A DNA stretch of 64,000 nt from Pirellulales bacterium (GTDB lineage: Bacteria > Planctomycetota > Planctomycetia > Pirellulales > JADZDJ01). Location of the stretch: the NCBI GenBank assembly GCA_035499655.1, contig DATJYL010000214.1, forward strand, positions 1 to 64,000, written 5' to 3'. The notes below the pieces were generated by a model. The model made no database searches, was not told the DNA's origin, and saw only the letters and a program-made list of their open reading frames with translations. A program made the translations under genes and the position numbers. Positions 2,832 to 8,788 of the stretch are shown here, in pieces; position 1 is the stretch's first letter; every line of letters starts with the position of its first letter.

Positions 2832-3911
2832 TCAACCCAGCCCGGCTAATTCACATAAATTGGCGTTCATCACCGGTTGCGGGCAACTCCACACTAGGAA
2901 GAACAACGCCTCACGGCACCAGCGGCCGGCCGGGTGTCCGGAAACGTAACCGGCGCCTTTGGCCGCGGCCAAGGCAGCTTGGGTCGCCCGCAGTGCCAGG
3001 CTGTTGGCATGGGCGCGGAGCGATTCCGACGTACAAGCTTCTGTGCCAGAAGCCAACGACAATAGATTGTTCTCCCAGGTGGAAAGTTCGCGCTGCAGAT
3101 TTTCGGTGGGGCCCGCGAGATCGGCGCGTTGTTGAGATTCACGGGCGAGATATGCTATGGCCGCTGTCGACAAACCGATGGCCAAGGCGGAAGTTTGCAA
3201 GCCGCCGGTTTTTGCGCCGCTGTGGGCGGCCATGACGTTTTCCAGCGGACCATCGAGCAACCATTCGCGGCCGACGTGCACGTCGTGACATTCCAGCGGC
3301 CCGGTATGGCTAGCGGTTAGGCCCAACAGTTGTGCATGCGGCGGCGTGACGACTCCGGGAAGCGAAGTGGGCAAGGCGAGTAGAATTTGCCGCCCATCGT
3401 TCAAGGTAGCGCCCAAGACCACGCTGTCAGCGTGATCAGCCCCGGTGACCCAGGGACTGTAGCCGTTGAGCACGAAGCCATCGGCAGTTTCCTGAGCCTG
3501 CAAAACGGGCTTGGCCAAGTGGCGCCGGCTAGTGGTGAGATGCGAAATGCCGACGGTGGTGAACATACTTCCCTCGGCCAGCCGCGGCAATAATTGTTGC
3601 TTGGCCGCTTCGTTATCGCTTTCGATGATGCGTTTTACGGCGGCACTACGCTGCGTGAGAATAAACGTGGTGGTCAGGCAGGCCGCCGCGAGTGTGACAT
3701 ATCCCCGGGCAAGGTCTGCTTCGCTCCAGTCGACTCCTCCCCAATATTGCGGCTGGAACCAACGATATACGCCCGTTTTGCCGAGCAGATTAAGCTGTTC
3801 CTCCGGCCAATCGCCGGTTGTGTCTAGGTTGCCTGCTCGGGAAGCAAGCTCGTGACAAAGCAGTTCGATTTCCCTACCCTCAGGCCGAGTGATGTGTTTG
3901 AGCGTGGCCAT
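2832..3911 (-). CDS. acyl-CoA dehydrogenase family protein
   Basis: A 359-residue flavoprotein of the acyl-CoA dehydrogenase fold. Visible parts are the helical N-terminal domain (residues 1-110), the middle beta-domain with the flavin-contact stretch TTVGISHLTTS and the segment GYSPWVTGADHAD (residues 130-190), and a C-terminal helical domain with a run of alanines. The usual catalytic glutamate could not be placed with confidence, so the substrate is open; acyl-CoA-like desaturation or hydroxylation by a relative is possible. It is transcribed away from the transposon whose end lies 247 bp upstream. Before that insertion it and the glucan phosphorylase gene would have been divergent neighbours. 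Confidence 0.8.
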   Translation of the reverse strand: MATLKHITRPEGREIELLCHELASRAGNLDTTGDWPEEQLNLLGKTGVYRWFQPQYWGGVDWSEADLARGYVTLAAACLTTTFILTQRSAAVKRIIESDNEAAKQQLLPRLAEGSMFTTVGISHLTTSRRHLAKPVLQAQETADGFVLNGYSPWVTGADHADSVVLGATLNDGRQILLALPTSLPGVVTPPHAQLLGLTASHTGPLECHDVHVGREWLLDGPLENVMAAHSGAKTGGLQTSALAIGLSTAAIAYLARESQQRADLAGPTENLQRELSTWENNLLSLASGTEACTSESLRAHANSLALRATQAALAAAKGAGYVSGHPAGRWCREALFFLVWSCPQPVMNANLCELAGLG

Positions 3912-4158
3912 TGGACGTCGAATCGAAAAGTGAGTGGCAGAAAAATACCAAGACCCAATAAATTACAAAAGCATTTTCACGGCGGCAATTCTAGTGTAAC
4001 GGTTCGCCCAAGCCCGATGGCAGACCCCCTCCCGCTGCAATCAACATTGGTTCGCACTTGCATTCAGGATTGCCAAATTGGGCAAGCCAGTTGGGTCGTC
4101 CAGTGGGTTCGAAGGATGGTGAAAGAAGACTCCTGGAAGCTGCAATTTTATTCCCATC

Positions 4159-4167
4159 CAGCGTGCG
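4159..4167. repeat. target-site duplication, left copy
   Basis: CAGCGTGCG abuts the left terminal inverted repeat and recurs at 8780-8788 directly outside the right one. Nine bases is the characteristic IS1-family target duplication length. Confidence 0.9.
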
Positions 4168-4190
4168 GGTAATGTCCTAATTTGAAAAAG
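4168..4190 (+). repeat. left terminal inverted repeat
   Basis: Begins GGTAATGTCC and ends in TTGAAAAAG. It pairs with 8757-8779 at 22 of 23 positions, and similarity stops immediately inside this segment on both ends. Confidence 0.93.
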
Positions 4191-4207
4191 ATTTTTTTGA
4201 CTTTGGC

Positions 4208-4948
4208 ATGGGAGTTTGGCAAGATGGCCACATGTCAAACGCAGAAATTGCCCCGCCTGTTAGCACGCCCACGATTTTAGATCGCTGGGAGATCACCGCT
4301 GAACAGTTAACAAAGGCAATGGATGAAAACCCAAGCTGCCGTGGAATGCTCTTCGGGTATATTGCGGAATACAAGCTTAGGGAAATGTGGTTCACTAAAC
4401 GCAAAGGCGTCACCGGGGAAGTAGTCAAAGATGACGACCATGACCGCGAGAATAAAGGCGACCTAGTTGTTACCTATAAAGGTCGCCCATTTCGGATCGA
4501 AAGCAAATCGCTGCAAACGAATTCGGTAATCCAAACAGCCGCTGGAACTTATTTTGGCAAAGCACAATGCGATGCAAGCGATAGGCGGCGGGTAAAGTTT
4601 CCAGATGGATCAACGCTAGAAACCACCTGCCTACTTCGAGGCGAGTTCGATATTCTGGCGATCAACATTTATGCCTTTCAAAATAAATGGAAATTCGTAT
4701 TCTGCAAGAATCAAGACTTGCCTAAAAATACTTATAGGAAATACACGGCCGCCCAACAGAAATATCTATTGCCAAGTTTAATCCCTACATTCTGGCCACC
4801 TCAACCGCCATTCAGAAATGAACCGTTTAGCTTGATGGAAGAAATGCTGAAGAAGCCTAAAAACGCATCGAAGAGCGTTTCTTTCCAGCCGGTATCTTCA
4901 CGAAAACCAAAAAGTAAGAGTGATTCTTCCGGGCGTGCGCCTGCTTGA
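4208..4948 (+). CDS. candidate restriction endonuclease (PD-(D/E)XK-like)
   Basis: A 246-residue protein (238 if translation starts at the in-frame ATG at 4232) encoded just inside the left transposon end. The part [12 protein letters not shown], then KGDLVV, then RIESKSL fits the helix-Glu, Asp and E-x-K spacing of PD-(D/E)XK nucleases, and [11 protein letters not shown] resembles the strand following the active site in many Type II restriction enzymes. The C-terminal 30 residues are basic and Ser-rich and lie opposite the methyltransferase tail, with which the gene overlaps convergently by 92 bp. Pairing with a methyltransferase makes a restriction-modification role the best inference. A repair nuclease or a transposition accessory nuclease cannot be excluded. 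No ribosome-binding site clearly decides between the two starts. Confidence 0.6.
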
Positions 4949-5564
4949 CCATTCGACTGACGACAGGCCTGTTTTCTCGGACAATAACGAATAGGTCCTT
5001 GGTGTAAAAACCAAGCCGTTCGTATTCTTGGATAATTTCGACATGGGTTAAGTTTTGACGATTTGCACTGACTTCGTCCTGACATTTCACAATCAAAACG
5101 CCGTTTGGTTTCAAAACGCGGAAAGCCTCTTTTCCGGCGCGAAAATACAGATCAACCACAGCCTTGTGCCATTTTGGGCCTCCATCGTTAGTCGCTTCAC
5201 CGTTTGAATAATGAGCGCGGAACGCTGCATGCGTTCCAGCGCCAGCCATGTGCGATTTTTTTCGCCGAAACAGACCTTCCATATAGGGAGGGTCGAGCAC
5301 AACGCAATCTAAACTGTTGGCATCATAAGGCAGTTTTCGGCAATCGACACCTGTTTGAATATCCGTCGCTTTTAACGTGTATTTTGACAAGTCTACGTGC
5401 TTCCAAAAAACACCCTTGCCATAAGTAACGTCGGCAATTACACCCCCCTCTGGCACATGCAACCTGATTATTTGCGGGAACGCATAACCATTCCCCCCAA
5501 CGTGTGCGCTTAAAACTGCGCTGGTCGTAGAAGACCCGTTCACTACTTCTCGTCTTTTCCTCAT
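4857..5564 (-). CDS. site-specific DNA methyltransferase (DPPY type)
   Basis: A 235-residue amino-methyltransferase. The S-adenosylmethionine loop is [10 protein letters not shown] (residues about 43-52) and the catalytic motif IV is DPPY (about 91-94), followed by a helical insertion and the strand [15 protein letters not shown]. Motif I before motif IV with little extra sequence suggests a compact N6-adenine or N4-cytosine enzyme; the target sequence is unknown. The start ATG overlaps the transposase stop as ATGA, and a strong AAAGGAG lies seven bases upstream inside the transposase gene, so the two proteins are probably translated together. The 3' end overlaps the opposing nuclease gene by 92 bp. 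Modification of the host against the linked nuclease is the likely job; an effect on transposition is possible. Confidence 0.82.
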
Positions 5565-6445
5565 GATTGACTCCTTTCAATCAGCGTTTCGAGTGACCAT
5601 AGTGTGTCGGTCACTCCCGCTGCCATTGCCGGTGTCATCCGTAGCGTACTGTGTCGTCGGCAAAAATTGTAGTGGGCTACGTGGATGGCCACTGCGGCCT
5701 CTAGGTTTTCCAGCTTTTTGCTAAAGCCCAGGCTGAGTCGCGCGAACCGTTTCATAAAAGTGCGGATCGACAAATTTTTCCTTTCAACATGGCTCGTGCA
5801 AATCGACTGAAGATTTATTCCCTGAGTAATCCCAATCCTTTGGGTGTTGACCATTTCCGGGGCTGCATACCTCCCAGGCATGTCGGCATTGCGGTAGTTT
5901 TTTATAAGTACGCCGTGCAACACTCTTGCACCCATAAACCTATCGATTGAGTATTTGTAGTGTTTGAAGCCATCGGTTGAAATTTGCACTGGGTTCCGAA
6001 AGCCTTCTGGATGAAAGGCGTGCGAGTCGCTGTCGTGCGGCCCTGGCAGCACAATTCGTTTTGACAAATCTTCGATAAACCGATAGGTCGTATTAGCCGT
6101 CCGCTTACCAATGATGAAGCTTGGAATCAACTTCGTTTTTTGATCCAATGCGATGAAGAGGAATTGATCGCCAATAAACGGCTTTCTTTCTTTTTCGTCA
6201 ACGTGAATCCGGCCTTCTTTTTTTTGAACAAAGGTCCAAATTTCATCGGCCTGGATATGACGAAGCTTGAGGTCGCGCATCCAGTTGTCCAGCATGACTC
6301 GGCACTTTTCCCCAAAGTCCACCAATACTCGCATAATGGTGTCCCTGTGTACACCTGTCAATCGCTCGGTCGAACGGATTGAATTGCCCTCGCACAAAAG
6401 ATGGATAATTTGCAGCCTTTTGTCGGACTTTAGAACATTTGCCAT
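5561..6445 (-). CDS. IS1-family DDE transposase
   Basis: A 294-residue transposase. The N-terminal 60 residues form a helix-turn-helix ([20 protein letters not shown]). The catalytic triad is seen as QADEIW, STDGF and HVERKN, and the stretch [22 protein letters not shown] strongly resembles the IS1 InsB motif around its catalytic glutamate. It is a single frame; no frameshift as in classical IS1 insA-insB is needed. The ATG at 6445 is chosen because GGAG lies six bases upstream; an in-frame GTG four codons earlier is an alternative. It is the first gene of a two-gene unit with the methyltransferase and is read from a promoter at 6570-6598 that is covered by an operator. The family assignment agrees with the element's GGTA ends and 9-bp duplication. 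Confidence 0.9.
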
Positions 6446-6469
6446 TGCGAACTCCACTTTGGTTGCGGC

Positions 6470-6504
6470 GTTCGCTAGAATGGGCTTAGAGGACGCAGCC
6501 TAGC
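6470..6504 (-). other. hairpin in the transposase mRNA leader
   Basis: CGCTAG and CTAGCG arms, with an inner GGCT/AGCC pair, enclose the predicted 5' leader of the transposase transcript about 25 bases before the start codon. It could damp translation of transposase, as leader structures do in other insertion sequences. This is inference only. Confidence 0.35.
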
Positions 6505-6563
6505 GAAAGCCTGGTTGTGTTTGCCCCGTTGCGGCTTGCCGGCTGCACCGGGGTTTTTCATCT

Positions 6564-6650
6564 AATATAAATGTAGCCACGTTTATATTGGCTGTCAATA
6601 GTTGTAGCCACATTTATTATCAGATTGACGAAAATAAATTCGTGGCTACA
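6564..6650. promoter_or_regulatory. divergent promoter with three operator-like repeats
   Basis: Two promoters lie back to back. To the left, TTGACA (6598-6593), a 17-bp spacer and TACATT (6575-6570) would serve the transposase-methyltransferase unit. To the right, CTGTCA (6592-6597), a 17-bp spacer and TATTAT (6615-6620) would serve the ribbon-helix-helix gene; the two -35 boxes share five bases. The nonamer TGTAGCCAC occurs three times: at 6572-6580 between perfect AATATAAA/TTTATATT arms, at 6603-6611, and inverted at 6642-6650. The first covers the left -10 box and the second covers the right spacer and -10 box. This is the arrangement expected for a repressor controlling both directions. 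Confidence 0.65.
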
Positions 6651-6660
6651 CTTACGGATT

Positions 6661-6819
6661 ATGGGACGCAAGAAGCTACCCGCCGATGTTCGCCGCAGTA
6701 AGCCTCTCCGAATTCGCCTGTCGGTCGAGGAGCGAGAAGCCATCGACAAAGCAGCCGATGGCAATGCCTCTAATTGGGCCAGAAAACTGCTATTAAAGGC
6801 CGCGAAACGCCGCAGCTAG
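6661..6819 (+). CDS. ribbon-helix-helix regulator, small
   Basis: A 52-residue basic protein. Residues 14-20 (KPLRIRL) fit the DNA-contacting beta-strand and the remainder (SVEEREAIDKAADGNASNWARKLLLKAA) the two helices of the MetJ/Arc fold. Proteins of this fold bind operators as dimers in tandem, which suits the repeated TGTAGCCAC sites directly upstream. It is divergent from the transposase-methyltransferase unit and could take the role that C proteins play in restriction-modification systems or that repressors play in insertion sequences. The ATG at 6661 is preferred; an upstream TTG at 6625 would add 12 residues that do not fit the fold and lie inside the operator region. The ribosome-binding site is weak. 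Confidence 0.75.
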   Translation: MGRKKLPADVRRSKPLRIRLSVEEREAIDKAADGNASNWARKLLLKAAKRRS

Positions 6820-6846
6820 CGGCAAAGCAGAAAAGCAAAGGGGTGG

Positions 6847-6875
6847 CTGTCATAGGGTCAGTGGCGCGTTATAAT
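6847..6875 (+). promoter_or_regulatory. predicted sigma-70 promoter
   Basis: CTGTCA (6847-6852), a 17-bp spacer and a perfect TATAAT (6870-6875) lie 28 bp after the regulator gene stop. The same CTGTCA -35 box is used by the regulator promoter. No credible coding frame follows before the terminator at 7116. Confidence 0.5.
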
Positions 6876-6881
6876 TTGGGG

Positions 6882-7149
6882 TTGACGGTGGGGACTGGAA
6901 ATCAAAAAAATACCCCCACAGTTTCTTCGGCCTGTAGGGGCGCGTGACCATTGGGTGTTACCCCGCCGGCCGCATTTAGAGTATTAAGACCCTATAGGTT
7001 CGCCACATCTTACAGCTCCAATCTGCTACACCGCTGGTCGTGCCGTCAGGAACCGTTTGCCAACGCTGATCCTGCTGGGCTGCGACCTTTGGTTGGGCGG
7101 ATGAAAACGAAAAGACCCGGCAGGGACCGCCCCTGTCGGGCTTTTTGTT
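6882..7149 (+). ncRNA. possible small RNA inside the transposon
   Basis: The stretch between a good promoter (6847-6875) and a strong intrinsic terminator (7116-7149) would yield a transcript of roughly 268 nt. It holds pairing segments such as GTGGGG (6888-6893) with CCCCAC, and GGGG with ACCCC around 6937-6964, but no open frame that stands apart from the terminator hairpin. It does not fit a tRNA: no GTTCRA T-loop flanked by pairing bases was found. A 62-codon frame on the opposite strand (6976-7164) is preceded by GAGG and is the main alternative reading of this DNA. Confidence 0.35.
7116..7149 (+). terminator. intrinsic terminator
   Basis: A 10-bp stem, CCCGGCAGGG with CCCTGTCGGG (one G-T pair), a five-base loop and CTTTTTGTT. 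On the opposite strand the same stem is followed by TCTTTTCGTTTT, so it may work in both directions. Confidence 0.8.
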
Positions 7150-7197
7150 GACTTTTTCGGGCATCCAAACCTCTTCTTTCGTCCCTGAGTTTTAATT

Positions 7198-7398
7198 TTA
7201 ACGCGGCAGCGGTTTCCGCCTTCGGAATCGCGATGGGCGTTTGCCTTTTCCGAGTTCTACCAACTCAATGTCGCCGTCCGGGGCCTCAGCCATGCGGCGC
7301 AGTGCATGAGAAACAGCCGATCGGCGGACCTGCTCATCCGGCTTCAATTCTTTCACCTTGCTGTGTACGTCCCGTGTTGTGAATTCGCTTGGTGTCAA
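7198..7398 (-). pseudogene. C-terminal remnant of an unidentified gene
   Basis: The 66 residues ending at 7198 (SEFTTRDVHSKVKELKPDEQ followed by a helix-turn-helix-like stretch and a basic tail GKGKRPSRFRRRK) have protein-like composition. Upstream codons in the same frame, beyond about 7398, lie antisense to the Beta-protein remnant and look unnatural. The gene therefore seems to have lost its front end at a junction near 7385-7398. The fragment may come from a DNA-binding protein; no family was recognised. Confidence 0.45.
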
Positions 7399-8054
7399 GC
7401 GATTTTGAGGATGAAGACCAGCTCGCCGAAGCGCTTGATGCATTGCTTGATTATGTCGATTTGGAGAAGGATCAAATCGACATAATCGTAGATGCGGATA
7501 CAGTTGCCGACCATCCAGCCGCCACGATTGCGCAATTGCATCGGGCGCGCCTTGAAGTTGTTCCCGCACTTGACGATTGGCGCACTGTGACAGTGATTGC
7601 GGGCGCTTTCCCACTGAGCTTGGCCCCGTTGGAACGCGGCTGGAATGAGCGAAGCAGAAGCGATTGGCTGGGATGGCGCTCAGTTATTAGGACACCAAGA
7701 AGACTAACATGGCTGCCGACGTATGGCGATTATGCAATTGCGCATCCGCAGCTGCCCCCAACAGGCCGCGCGACAATCTTAGCGCAACTAAGATATACTT
7801 GCCCGGATAAATTCCTGATTTGGAAGGGCCACAACGTTTTTACACACGAAGATGGCTTTGACCAATTTCTTGGTATATGTCGAAGCTTGGTAGAAATGGA
7901 GGAATTTAGCGGCGCTGAATTTAGCGCGGGAGATGCTGAAATTTACGAGAAAGCAACCAATGGAGGTTCGCCTGGGAACGCTGAACGGTGGCGGCGGATC
8001 GGGACAAATCACCACATCGAAATGGTGTTGGACCAGATCGCCAATCTCCCCTAG
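7389..8054 (+). pseudogene. Beta-protein family (sce7725-like) gene, 5'-truncated
   Basis: The readable 222 codons match the C-terminal two-thirds of the phage-type Beta protein family in style: an acidic helix with DIIVDADTV, then LRYTCPDKFLIWKG, GFDQFLGICRSLV, EFSGAEFSAGDAEIYEKA, and the closing signature WRRIGTNHHIEMVLDQIANLP. Members are normally about 350 residues, so roughly the first third is missing. The frame is closed by a TGA at 7380-7382 and only a TTG at 7389 is available as a start. The cut coincides with the end of the opposing gene remnant, which points to a deletion or inversion junction. It is unlikely to be functional as it stands. Family members often lie next to sce7726-type genes, as here, though here the two converge. 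Confidence 0.6.
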
Positions 8055-8586
8055 CCTTAATTGCCGATCTGACACGCTGACATAGCTCGCCACACCCAAA
8101 GATTTTAGTGAGCGCGATCCAGGCGCTGGCGCGAGAGTGTTTTTCCATGATGCCAAACTCCGCCAAAATGGATATGGCTTCTGATTTCCAGAGGAGCTGG
8201 ACAACAGCGTGGGGATCAATTCGTTTGTTTAGCCTAGCTTTGCGCACCGGCCGGAGATGGATGAGACCACTTAAGTCGCGAGCCTCTACAATCCCCCACC
8301 ATTTTGGAATTTCTATCCTAGCACGCTGGATGTGCTTGTCGCCGACCACTATTGTCATGGTGTCGAAAAAACGGCAATACACATCCCGTTGATGCGGGAG
8401 GCGGTCAAGTCGATCTCTGTTGCTTTTGATCTCAAAGCCATTAAAAGCGCCATTGATAACCGCAACATCGACTCGCGAAATACCCTGGGCAAGCCCCAGT
8501 TCCTCAACAATGCGGGTTTCGGCCTCACCATTGTGGCGCTTGCGCAAGTCCGAGATTAGCGCTTGACGTATGTCTAAATCCCTCAT
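7921..8586 (-). CDS. sce7726 family protein
   Basis: A 221-residue protein of unknown function. The opening (RDLDIRQALISDL, then TRIVEELGL, RVDVAVINGAFNGFEIKSNRDRLDRLP) is the recognisable signature of sce7726-like proteins, and the D...E-x-K pattern in VDVAVINGAFNGFEIKS resembles a PD-(D/E)XK nuclease core. Relatives usually end near the residues GDWR (about 175 here). The last 45 residues run antisense through the Beta-protein remnant and are probably read-through after loss of the normal stop. Relatives are commonly found beside Beta-family genes in accessory regions. A nuclease or defence-related role is an inference only. Confidence 0.65.
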   Translation of the reverse strand: MRDLDIRQALISDLRKRHNGEAETRIVEELGLAQGISRVDVAVINGAFNGFEIKSNRDRLDRLPHQRDVYCRFFDTMTIVVGDKHIQRARIEIPKWWGIVEARDLSGLIHLRPVRKARLNKRIDPHAVVQLLWKSEAISILAEFGIMEKHSRASAWIALTKIFGCGELCQRVRSAIKARGDWRSGPTPFRCGDLSRSAATVQRSQANLHWLLSRKFQHLPR

Positions 8587-8756
8587 ATTGGCATTATCTC
8601 ACATATCGTATTTGCGACTAGATGAATGATTTCTGATCGGAAATAACAGCGATAATCGGTACAAATTAAAGGCTGTTTATAAGCCGCCATCGCACGGCAG
8701 GAGCGCGTCCAGTTCTGCGGCCTTGAGGTGAGCATAATCCGGCTCGCTCATTGCAA
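8587..8756. other. right inner end of the transposon, no gene recognised
   Basis: Between the sce7726-like gene and the right terminal repeat there is only a 24-codon minus-strand frame (8677-8751) without support. GATAAT just upstream of the sce7726 start may be its -10 box. Confidence 0.4.
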
Positions 8757-8779
8757 CTTTTTCAAATTAGGACACTACC
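8757..8779 (-). repeat. right terminal inverted repeat
   Basis: Reverse complement of the left end with one mismatch: GGTAGTGTCC here against GGTAATGTCC on the left. Confidence 0.93.
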
Positions 8780-8788
8780 CAGCGTGCG
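8780..8788. repeat. target-site duplication, right copy
   Basis: CAGCGTGCG, identical to 4159-4167 and in the same orientation. Confidence 0.9.

Follow-up and report, generated by a model that had tools for sequence, protein, structure and literature searches.

Canonical insertion sequences (IS) of the IS1 family are about 0.7–1.2 kb long, and in IS1 proper the transposase is made through an insA/insB′ programmed frameshift, which is not found in the subgroups of the family whose transposase is a single open reading frame (ORF). ISMhu11-type IS1 elements of up to about 4.6 kb stand in the ISfinder tables. Here we describe an IS1-family element in the first 64,000 nucleotides of contig DATJYL010000214.1 from a Pirellulales bacterium (Planctomycetota; assembly GCA_035499655.1), a stretch hereafter called the window. 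Our favoured interpretation, held with a probability of roughly four in five, is that of a complete, recently inserted unit transposon belonging to a cargo-carrying IS1 lineage, bearing a restriction-modification (R-M) module together with a partly deleted defence module in its right half. Transporter IS (tIS) with passenger genes have been described, for example among IS1595-family members and as ISDsp3 in the IS6 family (PMC7986276, PMC3129680, PMC9330008). The present elements resemble tIS in that an IS-type transposase and simple ends transport unrelated genes, but they differ in forming an IS1 lineage of 58 elements, most of which have cargo, with a skew towards genes for R-M, toxin-antitoxin and defence functions. 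The literature searched, whose coverage is incomplete and leaves the ISfinder reviews outside it, describes no IS1 lineage in which the majority of members bear cargo.

The element spans positions 4168–8779 (4,612 bp) if GGTA is taken as its end. Its inverted arms (4167–4190 and 8757–8780) are 96% complementary and represent the strongest inverted pair between positions 3900 and 9000 (Table 1). The preliminary description had proposed a complete IS1-family transposon from the 23-bp inverted ends with one mismatch, the perfect 9-bp duplication and an IS1-like DDE transposase, all of which are borne out. The transposase is intact and matches the IS1 transposase family PF03400 (E 3e-8, exceeding the gathering score); its best NCBIfam match is the IS1 model NF033558 (63.5 bits, under the equivalog cutoff of 100). 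Residues D71, D162 and E225 are invariant across 12 relatives. Membership of the IS1595 family was considered and rejected, as NF033547 scored 17.9 bits against a cutoff of 75, far below the IS1 score, and no Pfam IS1595 match was obtained. The window element has the GGT ends and a target duplication within the 8–10 bp of the IS1 family, yet at 4,612 bp it departs from the short, passenger-free IS1 format, and its transposase is a single ORF rather than a frameshifted pair. Six further, more divergent transposase relatives are encoded in the same genome.

The flanking host genes encode an acyl-CoA dehydrogenase-like protein on the left (2832–3911, minus strand) and an alpha-glucan phosphorylase-like protein on the right (plus strand, coding to 11104), both names being read from the proteins. 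Both genes have orthologues, with 79% and 87% DNA identity, in a genome of the same genus (G392), where they lie divergently 141 bp apart with no element between them, and sequence right of the junction can be aligned with the window. The block is absent between these orthologues, which favours the earlier proposal of a recent insertion between two divergent host genes. The genome of the window holds only two good copies of the element end, with two further sites at three mismatches. No RNA families were detected inside the element at E up to 1.

The window element belongs to a wider lineage. Among genomes sampled from the phylum, 21 of 294 and 28 of 392 have transposase matches at the thresholds used. 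The end-and-duplication search applied to the window element was extended to some two dozen genomic loci, four loci on plasmids and 78 on viral contigs. Once duplicates had been removed, it left 58 distinct complete elements, which come from Planctomycetota genomes, plasmids of alphaproteobacteria and viral contigs of IMG/VR. Their target duplications are exact and 8 bp long in 53 elements, 9 bp in three and 7 bp in one, and carry a mismatch in one; the end consensus is GGTAGTG....A.TTTGAAA. When a GGT start, at least 13 of 20 matches between the terminal inverted repeats and an exact 8-bp duplication were demanded, 54 of the 58 real loci passed, as against 2 of 580 dinucleotide-shuffled loci. 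The pairing of ends and duplication in the window is far beyond chance. The transposases of L180–L183 (L numbers denote loci) and of a Methylocapsa plasmid (L185) are divergent and were excluded, as no ends of this kind were seen in the range searched. The lineage shares with the IS1 family of ISfinder its transposase family, ends starting GGT and an 8–9 bp target duplication, but differs in its length (1.4–6.3 kb) and in carrying cargo as a rule. Individual elements measure 1,365 to 6,263 bp (median 3,074). The transposase has a median of 1.76 kb of space on its 5′ side, and its stop is in many elements only 9 bp away from the right end, so the usual place of the cargo is upstream of the transposase. 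The flanks of viral loci include phage genes such as those for portal and terminase, and therefore at least some elements reside in phage genomes.

Nearly all 58 elements carry cargo, which varies from element to element; the view of the preliminary description that cargo is exceptional for such elements needs revision, since in this lineage it is the rule. We compared 114 cargo ORFs of at least 130 amino acids with 114 flanking ORFs as controls. Because ORFs were called mechanically, the cargo set contains some spurious ones, an effect that lowers rather than raises the cargo signal. Pfam families in cargo comprised HTH_3 (8), Peptidase_M78 (6), N6_N4_Mtase (4), SDH protease (4), SocA_Panacea (3), Gp49 (2), DUF3800 (2), PIN (1) and AAA types, while N6_N4_Mtase (2) and M78 (1) appeared among the best 25 families of the flanks. 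At E ≤ 1e-5, 255 PADLOC models matched in cargo and 72 in flanks, a ratio of model matches rather than of genes, as many models are redundant. NCBIfam matches in cargo include HigA-type antitoxins, SocA antitoxins and MAD2. RmrA-like proteins occur in L184, L147 and L136, the first of which also carries RmrT. A viral-contig element, L106 (within 2869–6840), encodes a type II restriction enzyme recognised by PADLOC (PDLC03455, E 2e-150) adjoining a methyltransferase, a second type II pair in an IS1-family element that is unrelated to that of the window. The RES/MbcA toxin-antitoxin pair at an Acidiphilium element (L187) lies beyond the right end (6897) and was excluded. The cargo of the lineage is rich in R-M, toxin-antitoxin and phage-defence genes.

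Further features of the lineage were seen in passing. Transfer RNA (tRNA) genes or tRNA-like sequences number 8–9 in the 188 kb inside elements, some degenerate and some strong (L127, 63.6 bits); loci in or at elements are L041:9011-9114, L049:8163-8239, L051:10247-10320, L127:5661-5737, L130, L135, L144 and L160. Outside elements, 4 of 11 tRNAs lie within about 110 bp of an end, in the flanks of L057, L135, L163 and L048. This linkage may represent either an insertion preference or cargo. Homologous ORFs of ~100–120 amino acids follow the transposase in L049 (10000–10311), L050 (9773–10081, with a 4-nt overlap) and L048 (10248–10610), with ORFs of like size and position in L108, L131, L141 and L167, and possibly encode an accessory protein. 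In L178 (G335:C3, 8122–14441) one 8-bp duplication, TGTAATGG, fits either of two right ends, and two transposases lie ~2 kb apart; this locus may hold two elements in tandem or one nested in the other.

The left half of the window element holds a DNA methyltransferase (M) and a 246-residue protein (R). M provides the methyltransferase that a type II R-M system requires (PF01555, DPPY). Its start codon and the stop codon of the transposase share the tetranucleotide ATGA, and AGGAGT lies upstream. Homologues of R and M are adjacent at five other sites: the plasmids pSB13 of Shigella boydii (NC_019357), pYLPK5b of E. coli and pLiSL22 of Leptospira, and two Planctomycetota genomes. Wherever the genes are complete they are convergent, and the M homologues beside R are 62–66% identical to that of the window, with an invariant DPPY motif; pLiSL22 has an additional M copy with a damaged R. 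Six R proteins, from the window and these five sites, share invariant G84-D85, E98-x-K100 and Q103. The resulting D-x12-E-x-K motif is of the D-x(n)-E-x-K type seen in PD-(D/E)xK nucleases, which at the level of the motif suggests a nuclease. The closest counterparts, on pSB13 and pYLPK5b, resemble the window pair in identity (R 53%, M 64–66%), convergence and overlapping 3′ ends, but they reside on ColE1-type plasmids and have a small helix-turn-helix (HTH) gene, encoding 75 amino acids, before R, as in controller-protein type II systems, whereas in the window the pair is on a transposon with M coupled to the transposase. Taken together, motif and gene pairing point to R as the probable restriction enzyme partner of M, and an R-M assignment of the pair is well supported.

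A control region appears to lie between the transposase and a divergent ribbon-helix-helix (RHH)-like ORF, which opens at TTG 6625 with an ATG at 6664. The GTAGCCAC octamers located there, two direct and one inverted, are the only ones in the 64-kb window, and the arrangement suggests an autoregulated divergent promoter. Relatives of the RHH-like ORF occur in four other elements (L041, L043, L107 and L141), and look-alikes of the leader hairpin in L041, L043, L055 and L179. In the preliminary description the cargo had been listed as a methyltransferase and a nuclease, moving with their own transposase and regulator. The R-M-like pair is supported, and the regulator corresponds to the small RHH-like ORF, which has a weak NikA-like match; the list was too short, as the right half adds sce7726 and a truncated Beta gene.

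PD-lambda-2 comprises A, B (an Xre-peptidase) and C genes, of which C is needed for defence while A and B form a toxin-antitoxin pair (Vassallo et al. 2022, PMC9519451). The Beta/PD-lambda-2 C homologue of the window adjoins a convergent sce7726 gene, as on Rhizobium p4, where the gene order is a small gene, an Xre-peptidase, Beta and convergent sce7726. The sce7726 protein aligns over its full length with the Rhizobium homologue. In contrast to PD-lambda-2, only a truncated C was found: the window yielded no B gene, A is likewise lacking, and the missing N-terminal ~150 residues of Beta do not occur elsewhere in the window. Five other IS1 elements (L051, L162, L164, L168 and L186) have as cargo an A-B-like pair, in which an Xre-peptidase resembling PD-lambda-2 B is accompanied by a homologous partner of 160–181 residues. 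At 7380–7400 of the window there is an apparent deletion junction, where a truncated minus-strand winged-helix-like ORF meets the truncated plus-strand Beta, suggestive of the loss of a divergent promoter region. The right half thus reads as a partly deleted, decayed relative of the PD-lambda-2/Beta-sce7726 defence module. Because C is truncated and B missing, while C is needed for PD-lambda-2 defence, this remnant is probably inactive.

Table 1. Features of the IS1-family element and its insertion site in the window.
Feature	Positions	Strand	Basis
Target-site duplication, left copy CAGCGTGCG	4159–4167	.	Exact match to 8780–8788
Left terminal inverted repeat GGTAATGTCCTAATTTGAAAAAG	4168–4190	+	23 bp, one mismatch to right end; fits lineage end consensus
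Putative restriction endonuclease (R), 246 aa, D85-x12-E98-x-K100	4208–4948	+	Pairing with M homologues; motif
DNA methyltransferase (M), N6/N4 type, DPPY motif	4857–5564	-	PF01555, E 6.5e-9; convergent to R gene, overlapping
IS1-family DDE transposase, single ORF, 298 aa, D71/D162/E225	5561–6457	-	PF03400, NF033558
Terminator-like hairpin GCCCCG...CGGGGTTTTT in transposase 5′ leader	6530–6565	+	Antisense to transposase; read from sequence
Putative operators, three copies TGTAGCCAC	6573–6649	.	6573+, 6604+, 6642-; divergent promoter region
Small RHH-like regulator	6664–6819	+	Divergent from transposase; weak NikA-like match
Winged-helix-like gene remnant, apparently truncated	7198–7390	-	ORF list and by-eye likeness to L043/L047/L050 cargo ORFs; no profile confirmation
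Beta_protein/PD-lambda-2 C homologue, first ~150 aa missing	7389–8054	+	PF14350, 134–341 of 342, E 4e-44; PD-Lambda-2_C
sce7726-family protein, apparently intact	7921–8586	-	NF033832, E 3e-44; convergent with Beta
Right terminal inverted repeat	8757–8779	-	23 bp, partner of left end
Target-site duplication, right copy CAGCGTGCG	8780–8788	.	Exact match to left copy, 9 bp

Several observations weigh against our interpretation. R matches nothing in Pfam, NCBIfam or PADLOC; an AlphaFold model made with three relatives was poor (mean confidence score, pLDDT, of 49) and gave no usable Foldseek match; the HTH controller of the enterobacterial plasmids is lacking in the window; and in an R homologue on a viral contig (L200:3662-4291), possibly inactive, the motif glutamate is replaced (S-V-K for E-x-K). 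The cargo of the window was seen in no other IS1 element, and the genome searched holds no second copy of the element. The preliminary description had looked to further copies and to an empty site for support. Same-type ends with different flanks and duplications were indeed found, but none with the same cargo in the element's own genome or ~390 sampled genomes of the phylum; likewise the block is missing in the same-genus genome, but the left intergenic part there is too diverged for a base-by-base reading of a single CAGCGTGCG.

Given that R is recognised by no library, the R/M-like pair might not be a restriction system at all, M being instead a regulatory or self-protecting methylase and the 246-residue protein having another role within the same IS1-family transposon. 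The distribution in viral contigs favours such a view, as 18 of 22 M homologues there are without the 246-residue protein (R was found nearby in 4 of 22, via M). A search of viral contigs with R itself gave no match; PDB sequence searches with R, an R profile and M were also without match. However, the consistent adjacency of M and R at all five plasmid or genome sites, the invariant nuclease-type motif and the small HTH gene that precedes R on both enterobacterial plasmids make this alternative unlikely. Of similarly low probability is that a once mobile unit is now an inert fossil, internally deleted and single-copy, with its cargo kept or decaying; the 5′-truncated Beta gene and the lack of a second copy are consistent with this, but the perfect duplication, the single mismatch in 23 bp between the ends and the intact transposase with all conserved residues speak against it. 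That a plain IS1, of canonical size, merely neighbours pre-existing host genes, with the far repeat and duplication coincidental or left by another copy (composite or one-ended), is scarcely credible when ends and exact duplications enclose transposase plus cargo in 58 elements against 2 of 580 shuffled controls, the host genes on either side are direct neighbours in a relative, and the genome has only two matching ends.

Returning to the unit transposon we favour, its behaviour may be outlined from the sequence and by analogy. The transposase would recognise the two GGTA ends and move the whole 4.6-kb unit, yielding the 9-bp duplication, a chemistry taken from the IS1 family. The left half would act as a two-gene R-M module with convergent genes, in which M, its translation being coupled to that of the transposase, is probably produced each time the latter is, while the nuclease gene would be expressed separately from the left end. 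As M is coupled to the transposase and the nuclease read separately, protection before restriction may be built into the arrangement. Through the three GTAGCCAC sites, the divergent RHH protein probably acts as a repressor of the operon formed by transposase and M. The R-M pair would most likely serve as an addiction and phage-defence module, selecting for retention of the element.

IS1 is the textbook minimal insertion sequence, whereas here a whole related lineage consists of small unit transposons with interchangeable, defence-biased cargo. Annotation pipelines overlook such elements because only the transposase gets labelled. We propose, tentatively and at somewhat less than even confidence, that this lineage, widespread in Planctomycetota, alphaproteobacteria and phage genomes, regularly picks up and disseminates modules for addiction and defence (R-M, PD-lambda-2-like, RmrTA, SocA-like, PIN) and prefers tRNA-adjacent sites, and that phages and bacteria may thus exchange immunity genes on elements of a few kb. 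Such elements could give defence and addiction modules a simple route into chromosomes, plasmids and phages, and the lineage makes it testable whether addiction cargo raises the persistence of a transposon.

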